64,000 bases of DNA from the NCBI GenBank assembly GCA_028622995.1, contig JAJQJQ010000024.1:2232001-2296000 (forward strand), given 5' to 3'. Positions 19,520 through 64,000 of this stretch are shown here, piece by piece. Positions within the stretch are counted from its first letter, which is position 1, and each line of letters opens with the position of its first letter. The DNA comes from Panagrolaimus kolymaensis. Taxonomy: Eukaryota; Nematoda; Chromadorea; Rhabditida; Panagrolaimidae. The notes beneath the pieces were generated by a model. The model saw only the letters and a program-made list of their open reading frames with translations. It was not told the origin of the DNA and made no database searches. The position numbers were made by a program, and so were the translations under genes.

Positions 19520-19845
19520 TGTGGTCGTCGTCGATGTTCAAAAAAGTGAAGAATGAAAAAAATGGAAGAAGGAAGAACGAAGAAACTAAAAAAATGTTTG
19601 ATGCAAATTTTTTGAAAGACACGAAAGAAAAAAAATGCGGGCATTGTTGGTTTGCGTTCAAAGACAGCGTTTTTTTTGTTTGTTTGTTGTTTGTTTGCAA
19701 AAAGCAATGACATTTTTGGACATTGAATTTTCTGTCATTTCTTGGTTAGTAAATTTCATCATCACAAAATCTTTTGCTCAAGTCTATCAATTTTTTATCG
19801 TCCACTTTTAAAGAAACGTTTTTTGCTTGTTTGGTTTGAATTACG

Positions 19846-29477: not shown

Positions 29478-30202
29478 TAGTGCACAGTATTACTATGTAA
29501 AAAAACACGAGGCTGTTCAGGAAAAAAAACTTTTAGACGGTGGAAGAGATTAATTTAATTTTAATTGATTTTGCTTTTAGACGGCTAATGAGATTAATTT
29601 TTTTATTAGTTTAAATAAATTATTTTATATGTTACCCCGAAACAAACAGCCGCACCATCTTCGATTTTTATTATCCAACTTCTTTATCAAATTTCTGTTA
29701 TTAAAAAATCGTCTTTTATATGTAAATTAAAAAAATTAAGATAAAAAACACGGTAAAAATTTAAATTTTTGTTTTATTCTTGATTAGATAAAATTAAGAA
29801 GCCAACTCGTAGTAGAGTCGACAAGATTTTTAATGTAAAAAATCTTTTGGTGTAAAATGAGAAAAAAATAATTATAAGGTCAGTTACAAAATTTTTGAAG
29901 CTTTTTATTAAATTTTTCTATTGATTTTTGAAACATGTTTAAAAAGAGGTATTTTAAGCAAAAAATTTAAATATTATTAATTGTCCAACAAAAATTTTTA
30001 TAACTGTTAAAAATCGAAGATGGTGCGGCTGTTTGTTTCGGGGTAACATATAAAATAATTTATTTAAACTAATAAAAAAATTAATCTCATTAGCCGTCTA
30101 AAAGCAAAATCAATTAAAATTAAATTAATCTCTTCCACCGTCTAAAAGTTTTTTTTCCTGAACAGCCTCGTGTTTTTTTACATAGTAATACTGTGCACTA
30201 AT
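29476..30202. mobile_element. Fold-back element, inverted repeat arms of about 195 bp
   Basis: 29476-29670 is the reverse complement of 30009-30202 with at most a one-base slip in an A run. Outer ends read TTAGTGCACAGTATTACTAT. The arms contain a short internal direct repeat, TTTTAGACGG..GAGATTAATTT. The 338-nt centre is AT-rich without coding capacity. No clear target duplication was found. It interrupts a duplicated receptor exon fragment, which shows it inserted after that duplication. Confidence 0.8.
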
Positions 30203-30234
30203 CTCTTGAGCCGTCTGCAACAATAATTATAATA

Positions 30235-37400: not shown

Positions 37401-40400
37401 ACATTTTTTGTGCTTCCATAGCCCTTTGGAATTCTTTGGGTGAAATCCATCCATCTTTATTTGTATCAAAATCTTGGAAAGCTTGCGACGTGGTTAAATC
37501 TTTAAGTTTTAAAAACATATCAGAAAATTTTAATATCATTTCCACGCATTGTTGTGATTCAACAAGGGCATCAACCATTTGTTTTCCAATGGGTCCATTA
37601 AGAACATTTCCTTCCAACATAGAAAGCATTAAAACGATCATATCTTTTTGTAAATTTAAAAATTCTCGAAGTAATTCCAATTGGGTCGAATTTTTATATA
37701 ATTTTTCCATCATATGAGCAAATAAAAAGAAGAAACCATTGATGGCATCCCATAAACGTGAATTAGCTAAAGTCATTTGATTTCCGACGCATGGACCCTA
37801 AAAAAATAAAATAAATAAATTGGTGGTTGAAAAAATTATTGTTCTTCTGTTTTAAAATATTTTCTTATCTTTTTTGACGCAGTTTATTTTTTTGTGGATT
37901 TACTTTAAAATGTTACAATTTATTGAATTTTTTTTTTTTGCCAATCATGTCATGGCTAATAACACCCAGTTTTATAAATACTGACTAATTATTTTATGTT
38001 TGAAAACGTGAAAAGTTTTTATTTTTACTTTTGGAAGCAGCTTATTTTTAGATGACACAGTTTATAAAAGAAAATTTTTCATCCAAAGTTATTCTATTAA
38101 TCAGTTTAAAAAATTCTTTATTAATAGTTTTGAAATTAATAACAATTAATTTTTTATTATTAAGAAAATTTAATATAAGACAGTTTTTCATAAAAACATT
38201 ATTAATCATCGTGGCTTCTTTAACCCAGTTTAAAAAAAGACACTCTTTTATTTTTAATTACAACTTTGTAATTAATTTGGTTTTAAATGCTCCAGAATAA
38301 TAAAAGTTTTCAGTTTTTAAATAATTTTTATTTTTGATGTGTGAAAATAATAGTTTATCAAAGAAAACTCTTCTTCTTTGAAGATGATGTTCAGTTATAA
38401 AATACCAGAAGAAAACTAACGCAGTTTAATTTAAAAAAAATTGCGCCGAAGAAACAAATGGATACATTTTATAATAAAAAATTTTAATTTCTAAAAGCAA
38501 AATCATGATTTTTTCTTATTAAATAAAGAATCCAGTTTACTTGAAAGAATATATGTTGGACTACTTAACAGTTTTAAAATTACAAAAATAAAATGTCTTC
38601 GGAAAAGGTCTTTTAACAGTTTAAAAAATAAAATAAAAGTTAAGCTAATTTTAGCAAAGCAAAATTTTTTAATGAACGTTTTTCGTTTTGCTTGAATGGA
38701 ACAGTGAATTTGTAGCAAAAATGATACGCAAGCTTGAAACAGTTTTAGTTTTGAAAAAAAAAGCCAAAGGGACTGGTTCCAGTTTAAAACAAAGTTATAA
38801 AAATTTAAAACAAATCTCTCAAATTCCTTGAAGCTAATAGAGACAGTTAAATTTTAACTTTTATTCCGGAAAAAAATAATTCGAAACATATTTAAAATTA
38901 ATAAACCTTTTAAAAAAAACAATGTTATTGAACTTCAGTTTAAACTTTTTATATTCCATTCGTTAAAGATTTTGGGAAAATGTTATTCTCAATTTTTTGG
39001 ATCGATCTTGAAAAAATTTGACCAGTTTTTGTAAGCTTTTTGAAACTGATAGCGTTAAAGTAAAAAAAGTTATCTAAACCGAACCTCAGTTTTAAAAATT
39101 AATTTTTTTTTGCATCAAAATCAGTTTATTTTTCTTTAAAAAATTATTATCAATCAAGAAGAAATAACTAACTTGAATACTTTCAGTCAAAGTATTAAAA
39201 ACTTGACTGCAAACTTGAATGGCGCGTAAAAAATATTCTTTTCCACCTTCATCGATAACTTCTTTAGAACTATAATGCCAATAAAAATCCATTACACTTT
39301 CTTGTAATCTCAATAAATAATCCACAGTGGAATTTATGAGATTTACTGAAGTAGTGTGGCCAGGTTGAGTTCGAAGATAATTTTGAAAATCTAAATTATG
39401 TCCCTCGCAAGTAAGTTGAAGGAATCGAAATAGGGAACATGTAAATTCAGCATCATTGAGATTTTGATGATCCCCTGCTGCAAGTTCTGCGCCCATTCCT
39501 AATCCTTCTGCTTTTATTTGGCGTTCAAACATTTCTAAATTGAGTACAGAGCATTTGTTCATGAGTCCAGCCAAAGATGTGAAAAATCTAACATCTTTTT
39601 TAAGTTGTAAGTAATCAATGAGCATCTAAAAAATAAAGATAATCCTCGATACAGTTTTTTTTATATTCATAAAAGTAAAAATTAAAGATTTCGACGCAAC
39701 GTAACAAAATTTTTTGCCCTGAACAGTTTTAAAAAATTTAAGATATAACTTTTTTATGAGATAAAAAATTAAAAATGTAAAGCTTTCAAACAATGATCAA
39801 ATGAATCAGTTTAATTAAACGTTGTAATTGGCTTTATTATGTAAAGAGAAAATGAGAAGTGACAGTTAAACATAATTCATCTCGATTTAAAGAGGCAAAA
39901 AATAATAATAATCACCTCATCGATTTTTATTTTCGATTTTCAACAAAAAAATTTTTTTAGTTCAAGCTTAAACATTTATATTTTGATTTGTGCAGTTTAA
40001 ATATTACAAAAATTTCGCTATTTAAAAAAAAAAGCTTCTTATATGCATGCCAGAGATGAAAATCCACGGAGGTGGAGTAAAATTCTTTCATTACCCGACA
40101 TTAGATTTAAAAGCCAGTTTTTAACGAAAAAAAACATGAAAATTTATTTCAACTACACCTTCAAAACCTCAGTTTCCAATAATAACAAACCCAATAATTT
40201 TAGTACCATCGAAACCACCCAAAAAAATCAACAACAACAAACCTTTTGAATATCTTTATTTCCTCCACTTAATAAATGAATGCCCAATTGTAAAGTTTGG
40301 GCTACCATATCCGATGGTTCTCCACTTGAAGCAGATAAATACATTAAACACATAATAGCTGCTCCACGATCAGCTAAAATAGCTTGTTCAGCTCGAAGAG

Positions 40401-43400
40401 CTTGAGTAGCTTCTTCTTTTTCAGCTTGATCTATTTCACCATCTTCATTTCCTCCATCATCGTCATCATCTTCAATGTGAACCGATTTAGCCATAACATC
40501 CGCATAATCAATATATAATTTATCATCGGAAATGGAAATGGCTTGAGATTCTTCACTCGTTGCTGCTCTTTGGAAGCATTGAATTAATTGTCGCAATGGA
40601 TCAGGTCGAGAATTTTTATCATCCCCATTTTCTTCTATTTTTAATACACCTCCTTCATCTTCAATTAATTTTAATGCCGTTGTTTCACTTTCATCTGCAT
40701 CATTCTGAAATTAAAGAGGAATCAGTTTATAAGTTGCTAAAAAGAAAAGAAATTTTTTGGAATAAAATAGCATAAAAAAGTTTTTTGTTTGCGTTTGTTT
40801 TTTCATTTTTTATAGCAAAAAAAAAAAGAAAGAACGAGGTTTTGTGATTTTATATTGTCGCAATTGTTAAACCTATGATAACCCAAAAGTAAACATAGCT
40901 TCATGAATCCATGATGGATGATACTCTTTAATCTTGGAAACAAAAAAACATTTGCAACTAAACAATATTGAAAAAAAACTATGTCTAAATTACCAATAAA
41001 TTATTTTGTTAAATTTTATTACATCATATCAAAACGTTTCAGTTTCTTCATTCTTCCTTGACTTTGATTGATAAATGTCAGTGTTTGTTTCTTCGAAATT
41101 TTTTAAAAAGTTTTTAAGCCACTCATAATTTTGTAAACATTTTTGCCTCAGTTATTTTAATAATTTGAATGCTTTTTCTAGCTTCCTATTAGTTGCTTAT
41201 ATCCATTATTAGCGAATGATTAAATGTAAAGTAACTCATAAATTCTAGCCATAATAATTAAAGGTCCGTGCAACCCGAAAGCAATAATACCAACAATGGC
41301 AAACAAAAAACTAAAAAATGAAGAAAAATTTTTCATTTCTTTCTTCCCTTTCATTTTGCTTCGTATTAGCTTTTCGCATGCAATTCAAAAATTTGCATAG
41401 GTTTTAAACCCAAAAATTTTTCATTCAAGTTTTCAACTTTTTTGTGCTTTCATACTTTTCATTCAGTCTGCTTCTTTGCGTTTTTGATAACGCAGCGACG
41501 TGTCTTTCATTTTTTGTGACATTTTTGTCATCAACATCCTCGTCGCCGTCATCGTCGATCGTCAATTGATTTGCTTGCTTGGCTAGTTGGTTGCTGTTGT
41601 TCTTCCTCCTTTGGGATAGGTATCATCAATTCAACTATGTTGCTTCATCATCATCATCGTCAACCTTTATGGTCTACTATTGTACTTATCTTTGCTCTTG
41701 GTATAACATTTACTGGTGTTAATGGAATGGAAAGTAAGTTGTTTTCTTCCTTTTTATGGGTTTTTTACTTGTAAATTGAAACGTGACTTGTATAGTTCAT
41801 ATTAACTTTTTGAGACACTATATTGATTTGGAATTTGCTTGATCCATAAACTCTAAAGCTATAGCACTAACAATCAAGCTTTTGTTAGCTTACTGATCTC
41901 ATAATCACTGGCTCATTTTTTAGCTTCTTCATCATGTCATCCATCCGCTATCTCAAGTACTTTGCCTGTTTATGCATTAGAACCACATCAAAATAATGAA
42001 ACCGAAGTTGCTCTATGTGTTTATCCTGCCGGAACCGATCAGACCTGTGATACAAAGCAATATGCTCGTATGGGTCCTGCAAAAGATCATTATCGTATAT
42101 TCTTTCGAGGTGAAACTGTCCTTATTATTCAATGTGCTGAAGACAAGAAAAACTGTGGCTTTTTTGAATTCACAAAGGAACTTCTTGATGATGGAGCATA
42201 CATAAAGCAGAATAAGGATGACGTGATCTATGTTCCATTTGTAACAACATCAAATGAAACAACCAATCAAACAATTACCAACCCAGTGGACAATTCAACA
42301 ATCTATGTAAATGAAGTAACATTTAATGATCCAATTGATATGGAGAAAATTTTTCTTGTTAAAGAGAAAGATCTTTATCTCAATAATGATTATCATATTG
42401 AATTTTCTGGAATTGAATGGCACACGGTTGGAATTATGAAAAACAATGATGCATCGCGTCATAAAGATCTTGTTAAGGGTTGCTTTGTAAGTTTTTCTTT
42501 GTGATATGGCTAATAATACTAAATGCTTACTTTTATTTTAGGAAGATGGTCAATTCTGTGGTTATGATCCTGGGCTCAATAAAGTTTACAAGTTTAATAA
42601 GCCAACATTGTATTATTACAATCGTATGCGATTCTTCTAGTAAGTTTAATTCATATATTTTGACAAAAATATAATTATATCTTTATTTTTTAGTAATGAA
42701 ACTGGTTTCTATCTTGATGACTTCTTTAATGACATTTGTTTTGGATTTAAACAAGATTTTTATCAAGTTGCACCATTTCTTTCAATCAATGTTGGTAAAA
42801 TGGGAGAAATTTCATATATTAAAGAGCATAATGGAAAGTTTGGAGCTAAACCATGTCCAACAAAGGAAGAATCTGGATTCGGAAAAAACTATCCTATGTC
42901 AAAACCTGAATCTGATTATGATATCGATGGTAATTTTAAAGTCCTAAATTTTCTGCGCAACGAGAACTCTACTGTTGGATGTACAGAAAGGTAAGATTAT
43001 TATCTTAATTTGATCATCTGTATAATGTTTAATTATTTTTTAGTAACCCGTGGCCATTTTATGCTTTCATCCCTGCTGCTGTTGTTGCTGTTCTTTTGAC
43101 TGCTGCTGCTATGTAAGTTTACATTTCGATTCGATAAAAAGAGATATATTTGGGGATTTGCTAGTGGCACGCCTTTTGTAATGATGTTTCGTTAATTTAA
43201 CCTTTTTTTTTTCTAGCGCTGTCGTTATCATCGTCTGTATTGCGAAAAAGAAATTCATTGCTCAAGGTAAACAGCTACCAAAGAAACCATGGCGTATGTT
43301 ATTTTTTTCATTTCTTCTGTGCTTTTCTTTTATTCATTAACTTTTTTTAGAAACTCAAGAAGAAGCTGCCACAACTTTCATGGATCAAACCGTTGGTGTT

Positions 43401-46400
43401 ACTGAAGCTACAACCGCTGGAGGAGATAAAACATCCGCTTATACAACCGTCGCTTAAAGAAGATGCTTGCTTGGTTTAATGAAAGACATTTAGCCTTTAC
43501 TTTATAAAAAAATTATTTTGTATGTGATTTAAATTTAAAAAATGTAAATACTGATATATAAAATTAATAAAATGTATGTATGTGTGTTGTTTTTTGTTTG
43601 TTTGTTGGAGGAGGGAGAATAGGGATACGGTATTTAATCAAATTTTTTGTTTTGTTTGTAATTATAGCAGCAGTAGGATAACTTCTCTTCCACTTTTTTT
43701 GCTTCCACTTTTTTGATATTACAGAAAAAATATATGATTGGCTTTTTTGGATTTTGCAATGACCCAAAACAAAATCTCTCTTATTGTTTTCAAGTTTCAA
43801 TAGTCTGCTTTTTTCTTTCAGAAAAGTTAAAGGATTGTCTCAAAAAGTTTTTGGAAGAAATAATAATTTTTTTATAGTTTTGTTTGCTGCTTTTTTTGGA
43901 CGAAAAAAGTAAGAATAAACTTACACAAATATCCGCTACAAGTTTATCCTTTCCAACATCTTCATCTTCAAGCCAAAGTCGACTAAATGCAGGTAAGAAA
44001 AAGTTGATGCCTCGATGCCTATAAAAAAATATTTACAAAATCAAAAATAAAAAAATGCAGTGGTGTATCACAACAACAATCAAGAAGCAAGTGTTTGATT
44101 TATTAAAGCAAAAAACAAAGATAAAAAAAGGGTTTAGTTAACTTTGATCTATTTCTAGCACTAGCACCGCATTTTCACACAAGTTTCAACCATCCAAAAA
44201 AAAAATTAATAAATTCAAACTCACTTATCAACTTTATATAAATGACTTGCAGTAATCAATGAGATTGCCATACGTTTACGTTGTAAAGTTAAAACTTTTT
44301 TCCATTTATCTTCTTTTTCTGTTTTTGATGTGACCTTAAAGGGTTAAAAAAAGGATGAATCGTTAATTATAATCTTTTTTTGTTTGTTTATGTTTATGGA
44401 AACAAAAAAAGGTTAAGAAAAAAGGCTGGCTACTGTAATTTTTTAAAATTTTGTCATGACTAGTATCTACCATCGTTTGATTTTTGAATGCTGATAGTTA
44501 AAATTTTTTTTAAAAGTTTGTTAAATGGTATTTTTCTAAGACCAATGGCAGGTAGATTTTTTTGAAGTAAAAATAAAAATATTAAGAAAACACACAAACA
44601 ACGAATAATCAAATACCACAGTTTTAAAAAAAAAAAGAATTATTATTAATAACACGAATTTTTTTTTCAAAACAACTACAAACAAAAATCAATCAACAAA
44701 TAATGGTAATAAATAAATAAATAAATTTATATACCTTGGAATTCCATAAAGTGGAACCATTCTAAAGCATGCCACCACGGCCCGTTTACGTTGATTGGAT
44801 AACATTTTTTTCCATGCCGCCGCTGGATCTACGATTGTTTGCTCCGTCTAAAATCACCGACATAATATTCAACTACAGTTTTACAAAGAAAAAAAACAAG
44901 AACAAAGACAGTTAAATGAAACGGTCAAGTTATAGCTGCGTTATTTGAAGAAAAAAAAAGTTAATAAAAACTCAGATGAAAGCTTCAGTTTTTTATGCCT
45001 AAATTTTTTTTGCTTGGAAATAATGCTAAGCATTCTAAACAAAGACTTTTTATTCAGTTTTTTTTTCTTCAACCAAAATATTGCTTTTTTTCTTTTAATT
45101 TTTGAAGATTTTTGAAAACAAAGAATTCGAGTAGGGTTGGTGATGGTCGCTCGACCGGTCGCGACCAGTGTTGTCGAATATCGAATAATCGAATCGAATA
45201 TCGAACGAATATTCGATTCGAAAATCGAATTTCGAACGAATATTCGATTCGAAATTCGAGACCTCGAATATCGAATATTCGATTCGATTCGAATATTCGA
45301 AAATTTTCGAATCGAATCGAATCGAATATTCGAATTCGATTTTCGAATATTTTCGAATAAATTTTATTAATTCTTTGTTTTAAGAGCCGAAATAGTTTTA
45401 AATGTTCTCAAATGCTCTAAAAAGGGCTTAAAAAGCATTATATAACTTAATTTAAATGTATTAGTGCCAATTATAAAATTTAAAAATTTCGAATATTCGA
45501 TTCGAAATTCGAATATTTCGAATATTCGAACCCCAAATTCGAAGGTTTCGAATTTCGAATATTCGATTCGATTCGATTATTCGAAAATATCCGAATCGAA
45601 TCGAATATTCGAATTCGATATTCGAAGGTTTTCGAATATTCGACAACACTGGTCGCGACCGGTCGATGAGGTTGCTGCGACTGGTCGCGACCGAAGTTGC
45701 GACCGCTACAAAACCTTACAAACTCTTACAAAAGTTTAACAAAGTATTACAAAGTCTTACAAAGTTTTGTAAGACTTTGTAAGGTTTTGTAGCTGTCGGT
45801 CGACCGGTCGCGACCATGAAATTTTCGAAAATCGGTCGCGACCCCAACCCTAAATTCGAGTATTTTCTCTTCATCCAGTTTTTTGTTATTAACTTTAGAC
45901 GCAAAAAGTTTTTTTTAGTTGAATAAAAGTAAATAGTTTAATAATGGTAATAAATTTGACAACAAATGGTTCAAAGCACCAGTTTTAAATATCTATCTCG
46001 AAAGGTAAAGAAGCTAATATCCAGTTTTTTTCCACCAAAAAAAGGTATTATGCAGTTTTTTTCCAAGTAAAAAATCAACAGACAGTTTAAAAAATATCTT
46101 TCTTATAAAATTAAAAAAAACTTAAATCCATAAAAATTTTTAGGAAGATAGTCAAAGAAAAAATATAAAGAATAAAAAGAAAGGGGACAAGGAAAAAAAC
46201 AGAACAGAAACATGGACTTACAAGTTTTTTTCTTTCCCATAATCGACGTTTACGAAGTTCACGTAAACGAGTCATCTACAAAAAAAAACAATAACATAAA
46301 AACAATTAATTTAAACATTTACGGATTTATAAAAGACTGGACAGTTAAAATAACATAGATATATAAAACTATTTTCAACATAGTCACAATTACCAAAAAA

Positions 46401-49400
46401 AAAAATAACACAAACCAATCAACAGTTTTCTCAATTACAAATAAAAAATATTTTTATTTGTTTGTTTGTCTTTTAAAAATTTTGTAGAATAAATCTCAGT
46501 TTTTTAAAATTATCTCTAAATTTAAAAAAAAGTGAAAAACCATACCGCATGAAGGATGGCAACAACTTGAGCCATATTAGCAATTTTTTCCACAATTCCA
46601 TCTCGGGTCATTTCATCTTTTCCACGCATTTGAGATTTACCTATTTTATGATAAAGGTTTAATTGCCATGCATTTTTATCCGTTGGATCAGTCTTAAAAT
46701 TGAAGAATTATTTATTTAACAGTTTTTAATTTATTTAAATTTATTTATTTTTTTAAAGTTAGAGGTGAGAAAATTAAATAAATTTCCCAGCCTTGAGACA
46801 CAAAATCAACTCAGTTTTAAAATAAAAATTTTTTTGTTGCTTGAATCAAAAAATATCCGAAATGATAAAACAAAAAAATTAAAAAATCTCAGTTTTTTAA
46901 ACCTTTTTAATACCTTTTCGAAGCTTATATCGTTAGGCGATATTAAAAAAAAAGAACAAACAGCTCATCGTTCCAGTTAAAAGATAAATTTTAAAAATTA
47001 TTGAAACTATATTTAATCGTTACATAAAAACACACAGTTTTTATAAATTATTTTAAAAAAGTTTCATTGTAGCTTCATATATATTTTTTGTTGTTGTTGA
47101 AATAATTGTGAATTAAAATTCAAAATCAAAAAGTGGACAATTTTTACTGGCATGCAGTTTAAAAAAATTTACTAATGCCTTAACGTTTTTTATTGCTGTT
47201 TTATAAAAAAAGCGAATATTTTGTATTCATTAAAAAAATTTTTTAAATGAATTACTATCTTGAGTATCATATCGCTTGAGCCGGTGTAACAGTTTTTTAA
47301 AATTTATTTTTATGATGTTTTTTTGTTGATAAAACACAAATATTAATTGTTTTTTGTGTTTCTTATTTATAAATTTAACCGACGTTTGCTCTTTTTTTAC
47401 AGTTTTCTATTTATTTAAATCTTTTTTTTTTAATTTCACCATTTTCTTCTCAAGCTCCAGTTTTATCTTCCTTAATAATTCTTCTTAATTTTTTTTTAAA
47501 TCACAAAATTGCTTTTTTTTTTGATTGAAAATTTAAAAGCCTCGTTTCTTTTATTTTTCTATGATTTTGTTTATTTTTTATTGAAGAATTATTGATTTCT
47601 CCTCGATTGTTAAATCACAGTTTTTTTTTGATATATTCTTCCTAATATTTTTATTAGAGCGATAAAAATGAATTTATTTTGAGTTTCTTATTTCGAAAAA
47701 AATGAGCCTCATTTTTTTTTTTTTTTGTTGAATAAATTTATATTTCAAATTTCATTTCGATTCACAGTTTTTTTCTTTAAATATTTAAAATTTTACTTAC
47801 CTGAACTGGGATTTCTAATAAATCTCGAATGAATTCTCGAATTTTTTCTTCATTTTCTCTTGCCAAGAATTTTTCTTTACATTGTTGAACGATGTCAAGT
47901 TCACGACCACCAAAAACATTTAAACCAACGGGGAGTAAACGCTTTAAGCAAGCGATGACAATGGAATTGGCATGTTTATCTTTTTTTGCTTGACCTTCCC
48001 TTCGTTTCTTTTTTCTTTCAGCAATTGCAGCTTTTCCCGTTTTCATTTCTCCTCCACCCACCATCGCTAAATCTTCCTCAAATTGAGCCATATAATTTAA
48101 TTCTTCTCGTTTAAAATGTTGTGATAAAGACCAAATTTTAAATATCACTGCAACATTTTCATAAACTCCATCCGATTCCCATGTGGGAGTTTTAAGCCAT
48201 TTAGCTCGATGCAAATCGGTGTATTTCATTAAAATAGGGAAAAATGCATACACGTCTCGAACCAAACGAGCATTGTCTTCAGCCACGGTTCCTTCATCCG
48301 CGTCATCTGGATGAGTTCGTTGTCGCTCTTCTTCTTTGTAAGCTCGTTCAGCCATTTTTCGAAGCCTTTCAGCAATGGGAAGTAAAAATTCTTTCACTGG
48401 ATCACATGTAACATGTTGAATTAATGGAACGGCAAAAACTAAAAATTATTAAAATTATTATAAATAATTTTGAAATGGCGCAGTTTAAAAAAGCAAAAAA
48501 AAAATTTTTTTTTATCAACAGTACTTTCCAACTCAGTTTTTCTTGTTTTGTTTATTTTTTTGCTTGTAAAAATCAACAAAAAAAGTTTTTTTTTCTCGCA
48601 AAAATAGCAATAACTAACATATAAAAAAAATTAATGTTAGTATTGATCAGTTTAAAAAACCTTATTTCTCATAATTTCGTAGTGGAAGTTGGAACAGTTA
48701 AAATTTATTCTAAAAAACTATATGAACAAAGCAGTTACTTTTTATTTTTTGAAACAAAATATGCTATAAAATCGATAATATAAAACATTCTTATTCAGTT
48801 TTCTCCTATCTTGATACCACTTGGTCAGTTTTATTTAAACTTTATTTCTAATTGAGGGCAGATATTCATTTAAAAAAATTCCTAATCGGTTTTTTTGCAA
48901 AATAAAAATAAATATTTTTCTCATAATTAATTTTTTATTTATTTAAAAAACGAGGTGGAACTCACAGTTTATTCGACAAAGCCATGGAGCATTTTCCACT
49001 CCAACATGATCTTTCATCATTTTCAATAAAGTACAAAATATTCGATTCATGTGATCACTTTTAACAAAAGTTGTTGGAAGGCTGAAAATAAAATAAAAAT
49101 TTATTCTTTAAAATACAACCGATCTTCACAGTTAAATTTTAAACTTAAAAAAATTTTTTTTTCAGTTTTAAAACCTAAATTTTTTTGAGGTGCAATAATT
49201 ATTTTTTCTGCTTGTCAGTTATATAAATTTTTTTAATATTCTTCCTGGACACTTCTGACTTTCATTTGCCAAAGAAAGTACACTCGTCCAGTTTTCAAAT
49301 TATTTATTTTTATAGAATTAAAAAGGCATACGGTGTTTTAACAGTTCCATCCGGGCCTAATTGCCACCAATAACTTAAATATGAACAAAGCAGTGGCAAA

Positions 49401-52400: not shown

Positions 52401-55400
52401 ATAATGCCCACCAAAAAGATTTAAAGGCATTTAAAGAAATAATTTTCAAATTTTAAAAATATGGCATTACTATTTTTGGGATCATTTTTCTTTCTTTCCA
52501 TTTTCGGGATCTTATTCATTAGACTTAAACCAGAATATCACGGAACGAATCAATGCAGTTAAAAATCATCAAATAATAGGGCTACCGAGATAAAAATCAG
52601 TTTTAATAAATTTTTTTCGTCACAGTTAAATTTATAGAAAAAAATATTTTTCATTTACCTACTACATACATACTTATGATCAGTTTAAAATAAAATTAAT
52701 TAAAAACTCCATAATATCATACTATGTTTAAGAAAAGTGCAACAAAAATTAATATCCCTATTTTTCCCAGTTTAAAGATGGTTAAAAAAGAATTTTGTGG
52801 GACATTAAATTTCAATCAAGATATGAGTGATATCAGTTTCTTTTATTATTATAATTAAAAAAAAGGTTTTACTAATCTACTTTATTGTAAAGCGTTATTG
52901 TCGGAATTCAGTTAAAAGCTAAAACAATGAGAAGTAAGCCTCGTTGAAAAAAAAACTCTTCAGTTTTAATAACACAGAGCTTCCAATGTCAGTTTTAAGA
53001 AGAAAAAATTGGATAAAAGCCGGCATTTCAAATTTCAAAAAGCCAAAGTGAGACTGTTCCTTTAAGACAGTTTCGAAAAAAATAAATAATTAAAAACTAG
53101 AGAATATTATGCCATGTTTATAAAAGTCTTAAAGAAGAAGATCAGTTTTAAATAAAGAAATTTTTTTTAAGAAATATTAAATTTTGGCAAAAATATTACG
53201 ATCACAGTTTTTTTACTATCACAAATTTAAAGAATTTTATTATTTCTCTCTTTAACCAAAAATCAAAATTTGCTTAGTTAGACTCGGCTCAAATGAAAAA
53301 TCAGTGAGCATCGATGTGATTGAGGAAAGTGGCTATTTTATTAAACATTTTTCTTCATCCTACAGTTTTTTAAAAATCTTTGAAGTAAATTCTACCTTTT
53401 TTTCAGTTTAAGAATGTCGCTTAAAGACAGTCAGAAATATATATGTAAATCCAGTTAAATAAAAACAAACTTACGTAATAAATCAGTTCCAAAATGATTT
53501 TTAGCGATATGCAAAAACAAAGTAGTTAAAGCGGGAATAATCATTTGATTTGCAAATTCAATAGAAATCCATGATTTTAAATTTTCACCTCTTAAAAGTG
53601 AATATTGTCCATTTCCATTTAACGCTTTCACAGCAATAAATAAATCATCGGCACAATTATTAAAAAATGTTAATAAACCCGTTCGAACGATATCCGAATT
53701 CATTTTAACTAAAGTTCTCAAATCCAATGCTTGAGTGAGGCCTTGCAAACATTTAACCGTGATTTTTGCGACCGAACCAAATGCATGATTTTTAATTCGA
53801 AGGAGACCCGCGAGACGACAAAATAAATTCGCTACCATTTCTTTTTCTTTATTCGATGCGGTTCCAGTTTGAACGATGGATGATGAGGCAAGGAAATAAT
53901 TTCGATGCGCATTAAAATATGCTCGAATTAAAGGCAATACAACCTTTTCAAAAAATTTAACATCTTGCGATTCTTTTTTAAATGAATTTCGTCGAGTTAA
54001 TTCTTGCGAAGGTTTGATTGATCTCATTCGGAATGAAGCTTGGTCGAGATATTGCAAAAGTTTTTCAAGCAAATTATATGCAAATCTCTTTTCCACAGAT
54101 GATCGTTCTCCCTCAGTTTTGACTCGTTCCGTGGATGGCTCATTTTCACCCATGCTGAAAATAAAGACGCAGTTTATTCATGTTAAGTTTATAAAATTTT
54201 CAATAACCGGTTTGTTTCCTGGGTAACAGTTTTTAATTTATTTTTTAAATGAAATTTCATTCGAAACAGTTTTTGCTATTGTCTACCATAAATTCTGAGC
54301 AGTTTTATAAATATTAAAATTAAAGTTAAATTTATTTAATTTTTTTAATTTCGCTTAAATCAAAAGTGCAAAATGGAAACAACCATCTCAGTTTTTAATC
54401 GTGCACTTTGATCCGTACTCTACCTTGTGTTCCAGTTTTATTTTAAATGTTGGCTAAAAACCAACTTTGGAAAATCTTTGGTCCTGACAAAACAGTTATA
54501 TATATATATAATTCTCTTAAATATAAAGTTTTTTCTTCTCAGTTTTTAATTTTATTTTTGTTTGAAACGCCTTTGGGCCAAACTACGTTCGTTCGATCCC
54601 AGTTTTTAAGAAAAATAAAATAATGGAAAAAATAGTATTTTTTTAAATTTTATTTAATCAAAGTTCCAATAAACAAAAGCATTTATTTTTTTTTAAAGGG
54701 TGTATTTAATTGCTCGACGCAGTAATTTAGTTTTAGTTTTTGTTTTTTAAACTTTTATTAAAAAAACAACTATGTTTGAAACAAATGTTTTAAATGATGC
54801 AGTTTTTTACTATACAAATAAAAGTTATTATTTCGCCTTATGGTAAAGCGTTGAGAAAGAAACCAGAATTTGTTAAAAAACAGAAAATGTTTTCGATTAA
54901 TAAATCATAGAAAGAAAAAATTTATTATTTTATTACTTTTATTTTTATGTATTTGCAAGTTTGATTATAGAATGGCAAAAATGTGCAGTTTAAAAAAAAT
55001 AATTTTCTAAATTTAATAAATAAAAAATCTTGAAGAAATAAGAAAGAAGAGTTTTATGTATTTTTTGAGCTTCTTGCATCGAATAGTTATTAATTTTTAT
55101 TTTTTTATTCCCTGAAAACTTTCGTAACCTAATCGACCATCCAATAAATCAGTTAATAAATAAAAAATTTTTTTGCTTCCTCTAAAAAACACAATAAAGT
55201 ATCTATCGCAAGTATCAGTTTTTTATTAGATTTTTTTTATCCCAGAGAACAAACACATAAAAAGTCGTTAGCTTTATTTTTAAATTTTTTTTATCGAAAA
55301 GCAACTTCAGAGAATTCATTATACTGAACAACTAGCAGTTATTTTGTTGGTTTTTTAAACAAAAGATAAATTAGAGCAGTTTTTAATTTTCATTAATTTT

Positions 55401-58400
55401 ACCCTAACTTTTTAATGACCCTATTTTACAAGTTCTGACAGTTTACGTATATTAATTAATTCTTTTTTAATTTGTTTAACTACTACGGCTGAAAAAAATT
55501 CACAGCTTATTCCAGTTTTTAATTGGGTTAACTGCCACATATTTGGCCTATGTAATCAGTTTTATTTTTTATACTTTTTTTAAACAAAAATAAACTTTGT
55601 TGAATCAGAAATCCTTTGGTCAAGGCAGTTATTTTTCTTTTTATAAAAAATAAACACAATCGTTAAAGAAAAAAAAGGACGCCCAATAATACATACAATG
55701 GGTGACAAAGTCTTGGGTTCAAAAACAGGGACATTGAGAGACATTGAAAGACATCCAGGGACACACACTTTGCCAAACAAAGGCAAAGAAAATGAAAAAA
55801 AATTTTTTTTGCAAGCTTTTTTTCGCAATTTTTTTTACGAAAACAATTTACAATATTTAGTTTGTAATGGTTGTTTATTTATTATTTAAAAAAATGGTTT
55901 TTATTTTAACATATATCAAAAATTTTAATTTATTTAAAGCATTTAAAACTGTATCTTTTAAGAGAATAATAAAATGCTATTAGCTTCTTTTTTCTTTTTA
56001 TTTTTTAAGTGAAACAATTGATAACAAATATAATAAATTATAAACAACTTTATGTAAATAAATTAATAATTTTTAGTTGACAGGGGTTTTATTTGTAAGA
56101 GCTTCTTTTTCTTTGAGTAATCCTTCATTTTCTTGTCGAATTTGGCCAATATCAGCCATAAGTTCTTCCAAACGAATATTCGAAGCATTTTAGGTTACTA
56201 TTTCAATCTAAAATTTAAGTTTTTTTCGCAAAGGTCTTTACAATTTCTCAGAAGCAAGCAACCGACTCATCAGTAAAGTCATCCATTTCACGATTAGTCG
56301 AACCATTCTCTTCAATGATACTCCTAATCGACACACATCTTTCATGCATGGAAACTAAATTTCGATAAGCTTTTTGCAGTTGTCCATCTCGGCCAGCTAC
56401 ATTTGACATCCAATTATCAACAACTGAATAAGTTCGATCTAAACTTCCATTGAGATGGTTGATTTATTGATCAAGTTTATTTAAATCTTCAAAAATCCTT
56501 AGTCTCTCTTTTAGTTGAACATTGACGTTTAACATAATTTCAATGATACGCTTTTGATAATCAATGCGTTCATTGTAGATATTTCATCAACGATTTTCTT
56601 TTTCTTAAAATTTTTTTTGTATTTTCGAAAGGTTTTATTTAATTTTCGACACGATGGGTGGAAAATTTAGCAAAGCTTTTGATGATCTAAGCTATTTAGA
56701 TCAACATGGTATTTGTAGTGAAAAATGCTCAAAAATTATGAATATTCAACAAAGCCAACAACATGCACAAACTACCCTTAATCTTAAATCATCATCTGAG
56801 TAAGCCATTTTGTTTTGTTTTTTTGAAAGTTTTTGAACACCATCCATTTATATTTGGATTGATCATCTTTTTCTCTTCTTTATCGTTGCTACAATCTTCC
56901 TTCTTGTTGGAATCCTCATTGGACGTCGCAGTGCTACTCGATGGAGCCACCGATACCAAGAATTCCTTAAAACACTTCCATAATTTTTATTGTTTAGAGG
57001 GAAAAACAGCTATTATTCTCTTAAAAGATACAGTTTTAAATGCTTTAAATAAATTAAAATTTTTGATATATGTTAAAATAAAAACCATTTTTTTAAATAA
57101 TAAATAAACAACCATTACAAACTAAATATTGTAAATTGTTTTCGTAAAAAAAATTGCGAAAAAAAGCTTGCAAAAAAATTTTTTTTTCATTTTCTTTGCC
57201 TTTGTTTGGCAAAGTGTGTGTCCCTGGATGTCTTTCAATGTCTCTCAATGTCCCTGTTTTTGAACCCAAGACTTTGTCACCCATTGTATTTCAGGTAAAA
57301 ATATTTATTTTGGAATTGATTCTTTTGTTTGATCGAAAATTTTGCTTTAGTTATTAAAATTCCCACTTATTTTAACTTCAACAGTTTAAAAAAAAAATTT
57401 GTTGCTTTTTCCATTATAGAAAAGCTGGACAGTTAAATTTTTTTTTTTATAAATAAAATGCTTCGATAGCAATTTTTTTTAATCTTTAAAACGATGTTGG
57501 AATTTTTATATTGCCTTTCAAAATTACTGCAGTTTACAAAATCCTATAATATTTTTTATTTTTACCCCAAATTTTTCCAATTGCTTGAAAAACTCTAATA
57601 TCGCAAGTAACAGTTTTAATAATGTATAAACTCTTGGCAGTTTTCAAAAAAAATCTTTCTTTCACATTCATCATCCAAAGAGTTTAGTTTTAAAAAAAAC
57701 ATTCATTGCTTTCTTCAAAAATTCGAATTGCAAAAATCTGCTCAGTTAAAAAAACTTTATATATATAAATTGTTTCAATTTGGGAAAAGAATTCTTTTTT
57801 CATTTCTTTTTATAAACTTTTTGAAATTTTCATATTTTTGAAAAGAAAGCAGTAACACTCAGTTTATAAACCCAACCATAATTTTTTAAATTTATCTCAA
57901 ATTTCTTCCTAAGCCTCCGAGGAACTCATAATCTTCAACAAGACTCAGTTTTAATCATTTGTAAATTAATTGCAGTTTTAAATCGGAGCAACCCGTTCCA
58001 TTAATTAACACAAGTGCTATAGTTAAAAAAACTTTCATTGCTTTCTTCAAAAATCCCATATCCTTTTAAACTTTTTTGTTATAAATAAAATTGAATGATT
58101 AAAGATAGTTTATAAAATTCGACTATAATTTCTTGATTTTCATACCAATTTTTCATAGTCTTCAAAGCTACAGTTAAATACGTTATTAACTTAAATAACA
58201 GTTTTTTCTTTGCAACTTTGATTATGGAAAAGCCGATGATATTATGTAAGTTAAGTTCAGTTTAAAAAAATTCTAAATAAAAAAAAAAGAAATTATTATA
58301 TTTCTTTGATATTTTATCTTCGAACAGTTTTTATTTTTTATTTTTTATTTTTTATAAATCAAAATTCCAAAAAATCTTGATAACAGTTTGTATTTTTTTT

Positions 58401-61400
58401 TATCCCTGGCAATATATATAAAGTCAGTTTTATTTTGTAAATTTTTATTAAAAAAGCTTCTTTGAAGAATAATGATTCTGTGTCTATGCATTTTTTAAAT
58501 TAATTTTTACGTATGAGATTTTTCCACGAACATTTATTAATTTTACCCGAACTCTTTTGTGGCTATTTTATTTTCCTATTACAGTTTATAATTATTTTAT
58601 TTGTAAAAATAATTTTATTTTTTATTTTGCTTTAATAAAGCTAAAAAGTATACTAAATCCTTCTTTGGACAACCGGCGACTTTGATTTGCAGTTATTTTT
58701 TTTTTAAATAAAAAATAACATTAATAGGCGAAAGAGGACTACAATACATTTATCAGTTAAATTTTTTTTTGGAATTTATATTTTTCTTATTGCCTTAAAA
58801 TTTATCTGATTCCTTTCTACTCAGTTTAAAAAAATAAAAATTTTAATTGGTTTAAAAGCGTTTTTCGAGAGATAAGAAAATAAAATTGAAAAAAAAAGAA
58901 GTTTGTACTTATTAATTTTTTTGGGCCTTGATTAGAATTATATAACAGTTTTTAATTTTTAATATTTTTTTATCTCGCACATTTTTGTGACTAAGTCCAA
59001 TGCCAAGGCCCAGTTTATAAATATAAAATAAAATAATATTAATTTTTTATACATATTTCTTAATCAAAGATGAAAGAAAAAATATACCTATGAACAGTTT
59101 TTTTAGAAAGAATTCCTTGTTAAGATAAATTGATACAGTTTTTATTGAAACAGTTTTATTTTTCTTTAGTAAAATTTGCTTTGTGATAATGGAAAATTTG
59201 ACACAGGTTTTTAAAATACATATAAATTATTATTTTTTGCCTAATGTGGAGTTTTGTAATGGAAAATACAAAAAAGTAAAAATGGTTGCTTAAAATAATA
59301 TAGCAAAATAATAAGCAGCTATTTTTTATTTTTGATAAATTCATAAGTGGAATAAATTCATCGTCAGTTTATAAAAAATAAATTACGTTACTCAGTTTTT
59401 TCGGAAAATAACAAAATTTTTATCATCTCCCTGCTATGTTTTTTAATTTTCAAAAAAAGTTGCCTTTGTTTATATAAAACCAAAACATGAAGATACTAAA
59501 TTTTGTCTTCATATGCTAAAAAATTCAGTTAAAAATTATCTAACAAGATTGTTTATTTCCACTGGAAAATCCTGATACAGTTTAAATAAAAAAATCTATG
59601 TTTTCGCTAAAAAGTTTTTAGAAATTTCCAAAGTCCGTCATTTAAAAATTTTTTAGTTTTATAATTTTTTTATGTATCTATCTTCACAACAGTTTATACG
59701 AAATTATCTTAATCTTACATACAAACTTGCAGTTATATTATTATTAAAATTTGAGACAGTTGTTAAAAACAATTTCTTTTCTTTTTTAAAAATCAAAAAT
59801 AACAATTATCTTGACAGTTAAATTTTTTAATATACTAGGAATCTTATGATTTATAAAATCATTCTATTTCCCCTTTTAAAAATATGGATTGAAAATTATT
59901 ACATTTTGATAAAAAAGCATAAATCTCAGTTTATGAAATTCTCAAGATAATTTTTTAATTTCTATCCCAAAATTTTTCCATGTACCAGGAAAGCTGTAAT
60001 ATATTTATTTAATTGACAGTTTTAATTATGCCTAAATTAGTGGCTTTTTTAAGGAGAGCACCCCATCTAATACCGTACGCAGTTAAAAAAAAATTATTGC
60101 TTTTCAAAAATCCGCGACACAATGAAATAATTATTTAGAATTTTTAATATAAAAAAATACTTTAATAGCAATTGTTTTTACTGTTAAAAAGGTTATGAAA
60201 ATATTCGTATTGCTAACTACAGTTTATAAAATCCAATAATATTTTCTATTTTTCTGTCACATTTCTGGGTGCCCCAGAAAAATTTGCGTGATTTATAATC
60301 TTATTTTTTTTATCATGGTTAAGATGTTGGCAGTTTCCAAACACATTATTATCTCTTCAATCGTTATTCAAAGAGATTAGTTTAAAAAAACATTCATTGT
60401 TTTCTTCACAAAATCGAAAGTCATAAACACTTCTCAGTTAAAATTTTTCATATAAATAAAATGCTAACGATTTATAGCATTTTTTTTCTTTCTTTTTTAA
60501 AGCTTTTGAAAAAATAGCAAATGAAACTTCAGTTTACAAAATCCTACCATAATTTTTTAAATTTTTATTCGAAATTTTCCTGAACTCCAAGCAAGAAGCG
60601 GTTTTAAAAAATTTTAAATATCTTATTTTTTTGATCACCCGTTTTGTCCAAAGTGTGACAGTTTTTTATTTGTTTAAAAAAATTTTTTTTTGCCATCACC
60701 CTTAATCCATTTTCAGTTTAAAAAAAATCCAAAACATACCTATAAATTCGATAACCATGATATTGAAAGAATTTCATAATTTCCGCGGCTCTAAATCGAT
60801 CCTTTCTTCTTTCAAAATCTGTTAGCAAATCCCATGGAACTAGGGTTAATGGCATATTATTGGCATTGCCATTTTGTAAATCTTTATAAATTTTTTTAGA
60901 CCAAATTTGATGAGAATTTTCTGCAATTTTTTCCGCTAAATTTGTCATTTCTTTTTCAAGGGTCATTGAAGTTAAATCGATTGGTCGAGGATTGAAATCA
61001 TGGGCGGATGTTCCACTTGTAATTCGATCATTATTAGCTTTTTCATTTGCATCTGGATCCACATTTTGGAAATTATAATTCCATGCCATTAAAGCTCGCA
61101 AACATTCATCACAGCGATCTTTATAGAAATTTTTTTCATATTCTTGTAATTTATTGAATGGAACTAATCGAGGATGGACAAGCTTAGAACGGTTATAAAG
61201 TTCGCCATGAGTCCATCCTTTTTCTAATTTCCTTGCTGCCCAAGAATCGTGGAAATGTTCAGCGAATTTTGTTACCATTGCATTTAATTCATTTGTGAGG
61301 CCTATTTTAGAATCATCCACGGGCTTGGGAATCCATGCCCCTTCATCTTCTTGAACTTTAGCCAATTCAGCTTTTTCCGAGCCACTTGTCAAAGTATAAT

Positions 61401-63902
61401 CTGGGGAAATGGCTGATCCAATCGCCATTAAGCAAGGCAAAGCTTTACCAAACAATTCTGGATCATATGGTTGCGAACCAAGTGAATCAAAAATTGCGTA
61501 AAATAATAGCATGGAAAGTCGTTTCTCAGTTTCAGAAGCCACTCCATAACTATTTCCCGTGCCATAATATTTATTGCATCGTTCATAATGAAGAGTGATA
61601 ATCTAAAAAAAATAAAGCAATATTAATTATTAAAATGCAGTTTGACTTAAATAAATTAAAAAATATCTATGATTCCCAAGATTCAGTTTAAATAGAATAT
61701 AAAAATTTTTTTTAATAAAAAGGTATCAAGCACAGTTTTGAAATGTTCATAACACAAAGAAGTATATTTAATTTTAGTCCACTTTATCTTTTACTCAGTT
61801 ATAAAATCTTTTTGAATTAATTCTAATAAAATTTAGAAAAATGAACGTTTGTAAAAGACTCAGTTTTTTTTTTCTAAAAAAATAAAATAGAACTTAGGGA
61901 TAAATTGCAACTATGGCTCCGAGGATCATAAAATGGAGAGAGATAAAAAAAATTATAATCCTTTTAAGTTTGGTTTTTTTACTCCGGAAATGTTATTACA
62001 CAGTTATCAAAATATTTAGAAATGGCAACTCCAACTACAAAGCTCAACAGTTTCAAAAATTTCATAAACGAAAGAGATTTGATTGATTTGAAAAAAAAAT
62101 TTCACTGAAATAAGATTTATTAAAAAATTAACTTTTTGTGAAAGAATCAGTTTTAACTAAATGAATTAAAAAAAATTCAAAAAGAAGAATGCTTTGAAAC
62201 CATGTTTTCTAACGTGTAAAAACAGGCACAGTTTTAAAATTTTATTCCCATATTAAAGTTGATTATATTTAATTCGAACAAAATTAGGATATTATTACTA
62301 TTTTAAGAAAAACGGATCGAAACTTTTATAAACAGAAAGAATCAAACCGCGACAGTTTAAATTTTAGAACTTAAAAAAATGAAAGAAAAATCAAATGTTC
62401 GAATTCAACTTCAGTTTAAAAGTTACTTAAATCGTAGGGGCAGGCTTAATTTGTAGCCAAGGGTGTTCAGTTAATAAAAGTTTAAAAATAAAGTATGAAA
62501 CTTTATAAACTTTTGCGATAGGGTGTGCGCCGCGCCAGTTATTACAACAAAATTAAATCACAAAAAAAGATAGAAAGAGGAGTATATTTTTTTTCCTAGT
62601 TCTCAAACCTATTTCAGTTACCTATTTTAAAAATATATAAATTAAATTAATATTTTTATTTTTGACTGAAAATTCTAATGGCAGTTATAAAATTTTATTC
62701 TTAAAAATGCCAAGAATAAACAAAGTTAACCAGTTTTTATTAAAGCAAATATAAGCAATTTTTTTAAAGGGAATACATAAATTTTTATGATTGGCAGTTT
62801 TAAAATTATATAAGTCTAGTGATTATTTTAATTTTTGAACATAAAAATTGGAACTACAGTTATTAAATCTTTTCGAAACAAAGCAATAAAATTTTATAAG
62901 CCTATGGGATCGGTGCTCATCAGTTTTTATTTATCAACAAAAAAAAAATAGAAATATTTGGCATTATTTGTGAACAGTATTATTATTTGAAGAAATAATG
63001 CTAATGCAATTTAAAAATTTCAACCTAAGTTTTTATTAAAAATTTACATAAAAAATTAATAAAATAGAATTAATTAATTTTGAAATGATCGTTTAAGTAT
63101 AATATAATTTTATTTGCGGAAGCCGAAAAAAAAAGGTTGCAGTTTAGAAAAACAAAAAAATGAAAAAATTACTAAATTTTAAGAAAATTATTGAATGGAA
63201 AGTTCACAACTTTAATAGTGTTATTACAGTTTTTTTATTTACCTTTTTTCGTCTTTAACTTTGTTAATAGCAGTTCATAAAAAAACTTCCGAAAAAAAGA
63301 AAGCTAAGTGTGAAAGGATGGCTCGAAATGTGGGAGTTGAAAAACCCAAAGAACAACAGTTTAAAAAATAAAGAAAAATAAATATTTAAGAAATTATTAA
63401 ATAAAAAGTTCAGAACTATTTCCAGAGAGAGTTCCAATTTTTTATTTCTCCTATTTTTTGCCGGAAATGCAGTTTATAATTTAAAAAATATTGTATTATT
63501 TACAAATGTATTTTTTTAAATGGTTGATCCTTTATCAATCCCACCACACTCAACTCCAGTTAAAATTTTAAAAGAAAAAAAATAGCTTACCCTTAATGGA
63601 ACCAAAACATTTTCACTCATTTGTTTAATATCAATAATAACTTTACGAAGTAATTTAATCATCATAGGTGGAATTAATTCTTTGGTTAAAGCAACCAAAA
63701 AATCACTCACTGCATCCCTTTGATTTTTGGTCAAAGATCGTAATCGATTCATTCGATAAACCGTGTGAAGAGTAGCATCCAATAAAGCTGAATGATGTTC
63801 AGCATCAGAAAAATAATGGGAATGATGAGTTAATAATGGCAATACAGCATTACAAAGATATCGATTTAAAGCTAATGCAGTGTCACTTTCAAGGGCTCGA
63901 GG
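34409..63902 (-). CDS. Ryanodine receptor, C-terminal half (5' part beyond the window)
   Basis: Twenty exons encode about 2,510 residues of an expected 5,000: 63902-63591, 61602-60740, 54154-53475, 50671-50563, 50198-50062, 49518-49332, 49081-48966, 48438-47801, 46692-46546, 46275-46222, 44847-44735, 44334-44225, 44018-43925, 40704-40243, 39625-39173, 37797-35215, 35098-34942, 34879-34714, 34621-34555, 34495-34409. The 863-nt exon carries a RyR repeat ([37 protein letters not shown]). The 2.6-kb exon has paired EF-hands ([26 protein letters not shown]) and the first membrane helices. The next exon holds the selectivity filter GGGIGDE; the end is FRKQYEDQL-like ([12 protein letters not shown]). 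It is the sarcoplasmic-reticulum calcium-release channel, single-copy unc-68 in C. elegans. A 54-nt microexon encodes a basic peptide ([15 protein letters not shown]). The largest intron is 6.6 kb. Confidence 0.95.
41637..43457 (+). CDS. Type I membrane glycoprotein nested antisense in a receptor intron
   Basis: Seven exons (41637-41733, 41924-42486, 42542-42639, 42694-42990, 43044-43112, 43217-43293, 43351-43457) join in phase into 435 residues, all inside the 3.2-kb ryanodine-receptor intron 40705-43924 on the other strand. A signal peptide ([17 protein letters not shown]) is followed by an about 330-residue ectodomain with paired cysteines and several N-glycosylation sequons ([16 protein letters not shown]). 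Next come one membrane helix ([26 protein letters not shown], split here as [11 protein letters not shown] and VVIIVCIA), a KKK stop-transfer and a cytoplasmic tail rich in T/A. I do not recognise the ectodomain family. The complete exon structure with clean splice sites and no stops argues for a functional gene. An in-frame upstream extension exists but starts at a TTG, so ATG 41637 is used. Confidence 0.85.
45132..45852. mobile_element. hAT-like MITE (outer), interrupted by a second MITE
   Basis: Terminal inverted repeats TAGGGTTGG / CCAACCCTA are flanked by AATTCGAG on both sides (45124-45131 and 45853-45860), an 8-bp duplication. Sub-terminal GGTCGCGACCGGTCG motifs are repeated in both halves, and an A/T palindrome (CTTACAAAG..CTTTGTAAG, 45710-45790) lies in the right half. 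Without the inner element and its duplicated target it would be about 227 bp. No coding capacity; it sits in a ryanodine-receptor intron. Confidence 0.85.
45166..45651. mobile_element. hAT-like MITE (inner, nested), 486 bp
   Basis: Terminal inverted repeats CAGTGTTGTCGAATA / TATTCGACAACACTG are flanked by GTCGCGAC on both sides (45158-45165 and 45652-45659), an 8-bp duplication of outer-MITE sequence. CAGTG fits the hAT terminal consensus. Most of the element is a dense (ATTCGAATATTCGA)-type palindromic repeat around an about 120-bp AT-rich core. Frames across it give only repetitive I/R/F/S/N peptides and are not genes. Confidence 0.9.
54155..60739 (-). other. 6.6-kb ryanodine receptor intron
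   Basis: The largest intron in the window. Apart from the Tc1/mariner-like element at 55696-57286 it consists of AACTG motif array in receptor sense. No further exon or nested gene was found on either strand. Confidence 0.8.
55696..57286. mobile_element. Tc1/mariner-like non-autonomous element with 276-bp inverted repeats
   Basis: 55696-55971 and 57011-57286 are near-identical inverted repeats starting CAATGGGTGACAAAGTC; TA dinucleotides flank both ends (55694-55695, 57287-57288), as in Tc1/mariner elements. No transposase is present. Instead the centre has gene-like pieces: on the minus strand a coiled-coil-like frame ending at 56073 ([20 protein letters not shown]) with apparent interruptions; on the plus strand a short frame 56654-56803 starting [11 protein letters not shown], and a second frame ending at 56983 with a membrane-like stretch ([17 protein letters not shown]). 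They look like captured or decayed host coding sequence. It sits in the 6.6-kb receptor intron. Confidence 0.8.
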
Positions 63903-64000
63903 CTGAAAGAAAAATAATAATTATCAATTTTTGTTGTACAGTTTTTTTATTCTTTAGAAAACAGCTGTCTTATGGAAACTCAGTTTAAAAAAAACTTTCT

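Follow-up and report, generated by a model that had tools for sequence, protein, structure and literature searches.

Directional AACTG arrays in Panagrolaimus kolymaensis join a conserved tag to a fast-changing 20-nucleotide block and may be loci of a piRNA-like class

What is specified by the pentamer AACTG, which recurs in a locally constant orientation along much of a 64,000-nucleotide stretch (hereafter the window) of the genome of Panagrolaimus kolymaensis, a clade-IV nematode (assembly GCA_028622995.1, contig JAJQJQ010000024.1, positions 2,232,001 to 2,296,000)? Here we describe these arrays and find that each AACTG, with the T run and A run before it (together the tag), heads a unit whose next 20 nucleotides (nt), the block, diverge faster than fourfold-degenerate sites, whereas the tag is conserved. 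On balance, the features of the DNA lead us to read the arrays as tightly packed loci of a small-guide-RNA class, similar to PIWI-interacting RNAs (piRNAs) and bearing a new tag. The genome has been reported as a triploid assembly of 266 Mb (PMC10374039); the sequence searched here comprised 265.8 Mb in 807 contigs. Because the genome is triploid, the window (on contig C23) could be aligned with two homeologs, on contigs C20 and C5. For each homeolog 70 kb was fetched, and the aligned portions of the window amount to 52.6 and 50.1 kb. The contrast between tag and block is visible only because the homeologs were aligned.

Orientation of the arrays and anatomy of a unit

AAACTG occurs 280 times on the two strands of the window, against a mean of 55.75 in 100 dinucleotide shuffles (standard deviation (s.d.) 8.02, maximum 78). 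Between 8.4 and 24.9 kb, where the genes concerned lie on the plus strand, the ratio of sense to antisense AACTG is 126:5, with a median spacing of 63 nt; between 38 and 64 kb, within the ryanodine receptor (RyR) gene on the minus strand, it is 208:8, with a median spacing of 72 nt. In 18.5 kb of array DNA, sense AACTG occurs 233 times against 8.3 expected and antisense AACTG 5 times against 11.2, the expectations being those of a first-order model with motifs masked. The regions for this count, as for the AAACTG identity profile and the substitution-type and five-mer analyses below, were picked by hand. Neighbouring tags in the loci examined form 112 same-orientation pairs, one convergent pair and one divergent pair. 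Tag orientation is that of the gene in all four array-bearing transcription units (rap-2, a gene for 64 amino acids (64-aa gene), a CTLD/CUB gene and RyR), a small sample whose homeologs are not independent. The dense, strand-locked arrays described by the first-pass annotation are thus borne out, and the counts support its view that the signal has a direction and is not a symmetric DNA element. Long introns are not the only setting, however: tags also occupy a 205-nt intron, 3 kb past rap-2 and the spacer before the CTLD/CUB gene. The remaining genes of the window carry scattered tags at most.

The composition of a unit was derived from 1155 units, homeologs included and exact core duplicates removed. 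A T-rich stretch (−7 to −3) is followed by A at −2 and −1, AACTG, the 20-nt block (+5 to +24) and then AT-rich DNA. The form noted earlier, a T run, an A run and AACTG, holds as a matter of composition (T 0.50–0.55 at −5 to −3; A 0.56 at −2 and 0.79 at −1). The G+C content (GC) is about 0.30 over +5 to +24 and about 0.19–0.24 from +26 to +39, so that the block ends sharply at +24. Within it, G is preferred at +6 (z 8.5), C but not G at +8, T or G but not A at +23, and G at +24 (z 11.3), and G is scarce at +15 and +18; these z values are inflated, since homeologous units are not independent. A pyrimidine–purine preference at the block start is a single-position effect, with no joint excess. Otherwise, the units have nothing in common beyond the tag and an AT bias. 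Tag spacing is broad above a floor of about 28 nt: across six sequences, 36 spacings in total are shorter than 28 nt and 7 to 31 occur at each length from 28 to 59 nt, and 8 of the 314 spacings in the window are below 24 nt, against 80 expected at random. A hairpin or miRNA-like precursor was rejected: 70-nt folds gave −6.30 kcal/mol for the real units and −6.19 kcal/mol once the block was shuffled (150 of the 1155 units sampled). No Rfam family reached its gathering threshold in the window.

A conserved tag and a fast-changing block

Array elements were defined by a density rule, which also underlies the figures for single stretches in Table 1, and gap columns were set aside, here as in the substitution-type and five-mer analyses. 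Across 312 such elements, 0.045 of the motif columns, 0.287 of the block columns and 0.155 of the flank columns are changed, against 0.179 at 896 fourfold-degenerate sites. The latter come from ten reading frames hand-picked from stop-to-stop open reading frames (ORFs), with 25 codons trimmed from each end; an eleventh candidate, a Helitron-like ORF, yielded no alignable site. After standardisation for composition, the ratio of block to fourfold sites is 1.48 (bootstrap 95% confidence interval (CI) 1.27–1.73), of block to flanks 1.70 (95% CI 1.56–1.83), of flanks to fourfold sites 0.88 (95% CI 0.75–1.03) and of motif to flanks 0.29 (95% CI 0.20–0.38). Purifying selection thus acts on the tag, the flanks change at close to the fourfold rate and the block exceeds it. 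Constrained flanks around a merely neutral block were rejected on the ratios of 0.88 and 1.48.

The boundary between tag and block is abrupt. When homeologs are aligned on AAACTG, with gaps counted as mismatches, identity is 93.5–99.5% across the six bases, falls at the next base to 68–83% over 18 bases, and is 82–94% from about +25. Of the alignable homeologous sites of AAACTG, 182 of 217 and 169 of 194 keep the word unchanged; permuted words (17 words pooled, each with at least 10 sites, some overlapping the motif) are unchanged at 178 of 306 and 163 of 279. Conservation of the tag is therefore not explained by conditioning on the word. Among the 142 five-mers with at least 40 sites, AACTG ranks first in downstream divergence (0.203, versus a mean of 0.107, s.d. 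0.022). The value for TAACTG (0.191) is similar to that for AAACTG (0.207), and five one-mismatch words, those with the best sampling, lie near background. Three sparsely sampled words exceed it (AAACCG, 35 columns, 0.219; AAACTC, 93 columns, 0.143; AAACAG, 104 columns, 0.138), an excess that is probably noise. Error after A runs was rejected on AAAATG (0.080), AAACTT (0.102) and AAATTG (0.100), set against an array background of 0.089.

The contrast between block and flanks is present in all six stretches with units passing the density rule, intergenic ones included (Table 1). It recurs in a separate array on contig C3 (locus L033; homeologs on C18 and C40), where identity is 0.94 in the motif, 0.71–0.77 in the block and 0.81–0.86 in the flanks (104 tag instances in three sequences; the flank figure leaves out the three bases before the tag) and the tag is intact in 154 of 197 comparisons. 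No recognisable coding exon was found in this second array, which hence supplies no gene strand. At 51 isolated tags outside arrays, the contrast is weaker (block 0.085; flanks 0.048 and 0.052).

Distribution in the genome and in the window

Genome-wide, same-orientation tag pairs number 3423 in the forward and 3482 in the reverse direction, against 409 and 411 for a reversed-word control. Such near-equal totals on the contig strands would be expected if genes lie on both, so they do not amount to the refutation by equal counts that the first-pass annotation set. Among the first 100 tag-pair places, those on C1, C2 and most of C3 are scattered, and dense one-direction clusters set in from 6.78 Mb on C3. 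A strict triple pattern was found at 135 places (68 forward and 67 reverse; reversed control 1 and 0); it is so strict that the window has no match, its contig matching on both sides. The first 100 of these 135 places, in contig order, lie on only seven contigs (Table 1). Judged by the places listed, dense arrays seem limited to a minority of the contigs. C5, C20 and C23 are homeologous where tested, as are C3, C18 and C40; with two homeologous sets, each haplotype seems to carry at least two array domains of roughly 3 Mb. On C1, six samples of 10 kb contained four units that passed the density rule, and none of the samples had a dense array. By rough extrapolation, the three haplotypes would hold about 68,000 units in total, a figure scaled from the 11.25 array units found per tag pair in the examined loci, mostly of one domain.

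Table 1. Arrays and host features in the window, and places of the strict triple pattern by contig (first 100 of 135 places). Divergence is given as the fraction of changed columns.
Feature	Contig	Position	Strand	Remarks
Example unit	C23	9188..9213	+	AAACTG 9188-9193, then 20-nt variable block 9194-9213
Array, last two introns of rap-2	C23	8471..12201	+	split by 1-kb repeat ~10390-11405; block 0.192, flanks 0.091 and 0.128
Array past rap-2 stop codon	C23	12795..15622	+	3 kb, as far as convergent minus-strand ankyrin-repeat gene; block 0.193, flanks 0.093 and 0.112
Three tags in 205-nt intron (~19897-20102) of 64-aa gene (~19844-20248)	C23	19926..20052	+	tags too few for density rule, hence no divergence figure
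Array, spacer from 64-aa gene to CTLD/CUB gene	C23	20391..21061	+	block 0.168, flanks 0.086 and 0.092
Array between mapped CTLD/CUB exons (~21384-22199, 23800-24034)	C23	22215..23749	+	Pfam C-type lectin, CUB; block 0.189, flanks 0.106 and 0.110
Array past last mapped CTLD/CUB exon	C23	24043..24845	+	stops before convergent MSP-domain gene; block 0.168, flanks 0.091 and 0.132
Host gene RyR	C23	35203..64000	-	Pfam RR_TM4-6, EF-hand, RIH_assoc, RyR domains; extends past window
Array, RyR introns	C23	37880..41153	-	RyR array elements pooled: block 0.199, flanks 0.106 and 0.108
Array, RyR introns	C23	44619..55630	-	pooled as above
Array, RyR introns	C23	57382..63985	-	reaches window end; pooled as above
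Triple pattern, 19 places	C3	6.90-9.86 of 10.1 Mb		
Triple pattern, 18 places	C5	0.27-2.68 of 8.5 Mb		
Triple pattern, 22 places	C18	0.16-3.45 of 4.06 Mb		
Triple pattern, 17 places	C20	0.03-2.54 of 3.9 Mb		
Triple pattern, 17 places	C23	0.18-2.87 of 3.75 Mb		
Triple pattern, 6 places	C40	0.01-0.62 of 2.3 Mb		
Triple pattern, 1 place	C42			

Within the window, Pfam places Ras-family exons at 8978–9163 and 12335–12571, in the gene named rap-2 by the first-pass annotation, and the ankyrin-repeat gene beyond 15622 is presumably TRP-like. The closest named relatives of the RyR gene are those of JU765 (80%) and Panagrellus (79%); JU765 is assigned to Panagrolaimus in its sequence record and to Propanagrolaimus in PMC10771965. 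No minus-strand AACTG occurs from 41.2 to 44.6 kb, around plus-strand ORFs (41905–42994) that are nested in the minus-strand RyR gene and have no Pfam match.

Several stretches set the window apart from its homeologs. A repeat of about 1 kb in a rap-2 intron (10390–11405) is missing from both; it holds a single AACTG (11366) and has dozens of matches elsewhere in the genome, mostly at 77–97% identity. A 2.4-kb stretch (29478–31888) is in neither homeologous alignment, and a satellite stretch rich in TTCGAATA within a RyR intron (45133–45853) is found in neither homeolog. The two ends of 55580–57360 encode near-identical reading frames in opposite orientation, forming inverted repeats, and most of this stretch (55696–57286) is missing from both alignments. 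An ORF with a Helitron-like N domain lies at 1905–3020.

A candidate guide-RNA class and its rivals

In the reading that we prefer, a unit would be the tag plus the directly adjoining variable element of about 20 nt, followed by AT-rich DNA. The tag would be the site at which an RNA starts or is cut, and the block would be the guide, turning over above the neutral rate as guides diversify. The GC drop after the block may mark the RNA 3′ end, like the RNA polymerase II (Pol II) pausing signature at nematode piRNA loci, and an RNA starting at the U of CUG would be 5′-UG-N20, a 22U RNA. We infer the production of such RNAs, their ends, their loading into an Argonaute and their targets; the carrier would be another of the many Argonautes. 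Because the units match the gene strand in four of four cases, cutting from the host transcript is favoured over independent promoters as somewhat more likely. The earlier idea of an intron signal survives in that tags follow the host strand, but not in that arrays run between genes and each tag heads a unit with a variable 20-nt body. A more specific scheme, which we put forward tentatively and with more doubt than confidence, is that AACUG in host transcripts is read by an RNA endonuclease or a paused polymerase, releasing guides of about 20–22 nt whose bodies would be actively diversified above the neutral rate while the tags are kept; the short-tag layout would be CRISPR-like, and the tens of thousands of units would make up another piRNA-like repertoire of nematodes, of independent origin, in a clade reported to lack piRNAs.

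Known systems resemble the arrays in part. Type I piRNA loci of clade V (21U-RNAs with the Ruby motif, 21 nt long with a 5′ U and bound by Piwi) are likewise thousands of short loci with a conserved motif in AT-rich surroundings; in C. elegans the Ruby motif lies about 40 nt upstream of the RNA, and piRNA sequences themselves change fast. The piRNA loci of C. elegans are reported in two 3-Mb regions and those of P. pacificus within introns of active genes, where sense and antisense loci are about equally frequent; in both species a step from high-melting RNA region to low-melting DNA, at the 3′ end of the precursor, is linked to Pol II pausing (PMC6436959). The AACTG arrays share the clustering in megabase domains or introns, and their GC step after the block matches the high-then-low melting pattern, GC serving as a proxy for melting temperature. 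They follow the gene strand in four of four units, whereas the P. pacificus loci are described as roughly balanced between the two strands (PMC6436959). The arrays are not marked by a CTGTTTCA-type Ruby tag; CTGTTTC occurs 4 times against 0.5 expected in the 18.5 kb of array DNA that holds 233 tags. Strongyloides ratti, also of clade IV, is reported to have two main clusters, 1 and 2.7 Mb in size, of 21–22U RNAs, with AT-rich upstream DNA (PMC9203780). The length predicted for 5′-UG-N20 would be compatible with the S. ratti RNAs, which are 21–22 nt long with a 5′-U monophosphate. The S. ratti loci are described as overlapping heavily and as having no upstream motif (PMC9203780), whereas the arrays have a strict tag and an exclusion of about 28 nt. 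The clustering, composition step and short motif shared with the clade-V loci, in a clade reported to have no Piwi, would suggest a piRNA-like class with another Argonaute. The Piwi domain (PF02171) has 143 exon matches in the genome, counted over all subfamilies together, a number suggestive of a large Argonaute complement even when three haplotypes are allowed for. We did not find the tag described in the literature searched, which covered few subscription papers, so that this absence is no proof.

Several observations weigh against guide loci. Piwi and piRNAs are reported to be absent from clade IV, Panagrellus included (PMC4323106, PMC6436959). Piwi_N (PF23278) has no match in the genome, although no control genome matched either. 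AACTG adjoins the block, whereas the Ruby motif sits upstream of the RNA, and at its first base the block is weakly biased (T 0.40, G 0.11). Some tags stand a short way upstream of apparent 3′ splice sites, such that the block would span the junction (54174 and 40727, minus strand). When the 1155 blocks were compared with 114 kb of DNA from elsewhere in the genome, near-matches showed no excess: 47 sense and 63 antisense blocks have at least 17 identities, against 152 and 157, and 195 and 179, for the flanks. Finally, the expectation that tags follow the gene strand throughout the genome, which holds in the four units, yielded a weak result when orientation was scored against the 5′ splice-site word GTAAGT: 1448 sense versus 1316 antisense. 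This slight excess, in counts to which non-array DNA contributes most, does not establish the strand lock genome-wide. To judge from the matches listed, short introns that end in CAG before TTT probably raise the antisense count.

The rival that survives best, although we consider it unlikely, is motif-targeted hypermutation, in which AACTG in DNA is recognised by a protein that nicks, unwinds or miscopies the next 20 nt or so; the block would be a mutational footprint without guide function, and the tag would be retained for some other role, for example in chromatin or transcription. That the block begins at the first base past the tag agrees with this, as do the substitutions in its first eight positions, where all twelve types occur and eleven (all except G>A) exceed the fourfold rate, and the overdispersion of block changes (variance/mean 2.28, versus 1.39 and 1.74 in the flanks; gap-free elements only). 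Break repair, however, is at odds with the deletions, which relative to the window copy affect 33% of elements in the block and 32% and 38% in the flanks. Moreover, the block has its own composition and position-specific base preferences, and hundreds of conserved tags require a function. We give still less weight to a transcription or RNA-processing signal (elongation, pausing, splicing or an RNA-binding-protein site) in which the tag alone matters: it would account for the gene-strand match in four of four units and for tag conservation, but leaves the block above the fourfold rate, its sharp end, the spacing floor and the megabase confinement unexplained.

A chromatin-level element, for example germline-licensing DNA like the periodic An/Tn clusters (PATCs) of C. 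elegans, is very improbable. PATCs are likewise intronic sequence rich in AT runs across megabase domains, but the arrays show no A4/T4 periodicity of about 10 bp (autocorrelation within 0.04 at lags 5–35 in two array stretches), and PATCs as usually defined have neither a strand-locked pentamer nor a variable block. A decayed satellite or mobile-element family, suggested by a motif repeated at short spacing, is hardly credible, given that the units are not alike over their full length head to tail but have only the tag in common, that none of 33 Tandem Repeats Finder rows fits such an array, and that spacing is broad above 28 nt, local orientation is near-perfect and the tag is kept while the body exceeds the fourfold-site rate.

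Should the guide reading hold, this triploid asexual animal would carry a genome-encoded, tag-defined catalogue of candidate guides, tens of thousands by rough extrapolation. How clade IV defends its genome could then be put to a direct test, by mapping small-RNA reads onto fixed positions. A block that changes above the fourfold rate over hundreds of units would also be an unusual setting in which to tell targeted mutation from diversifying selection.

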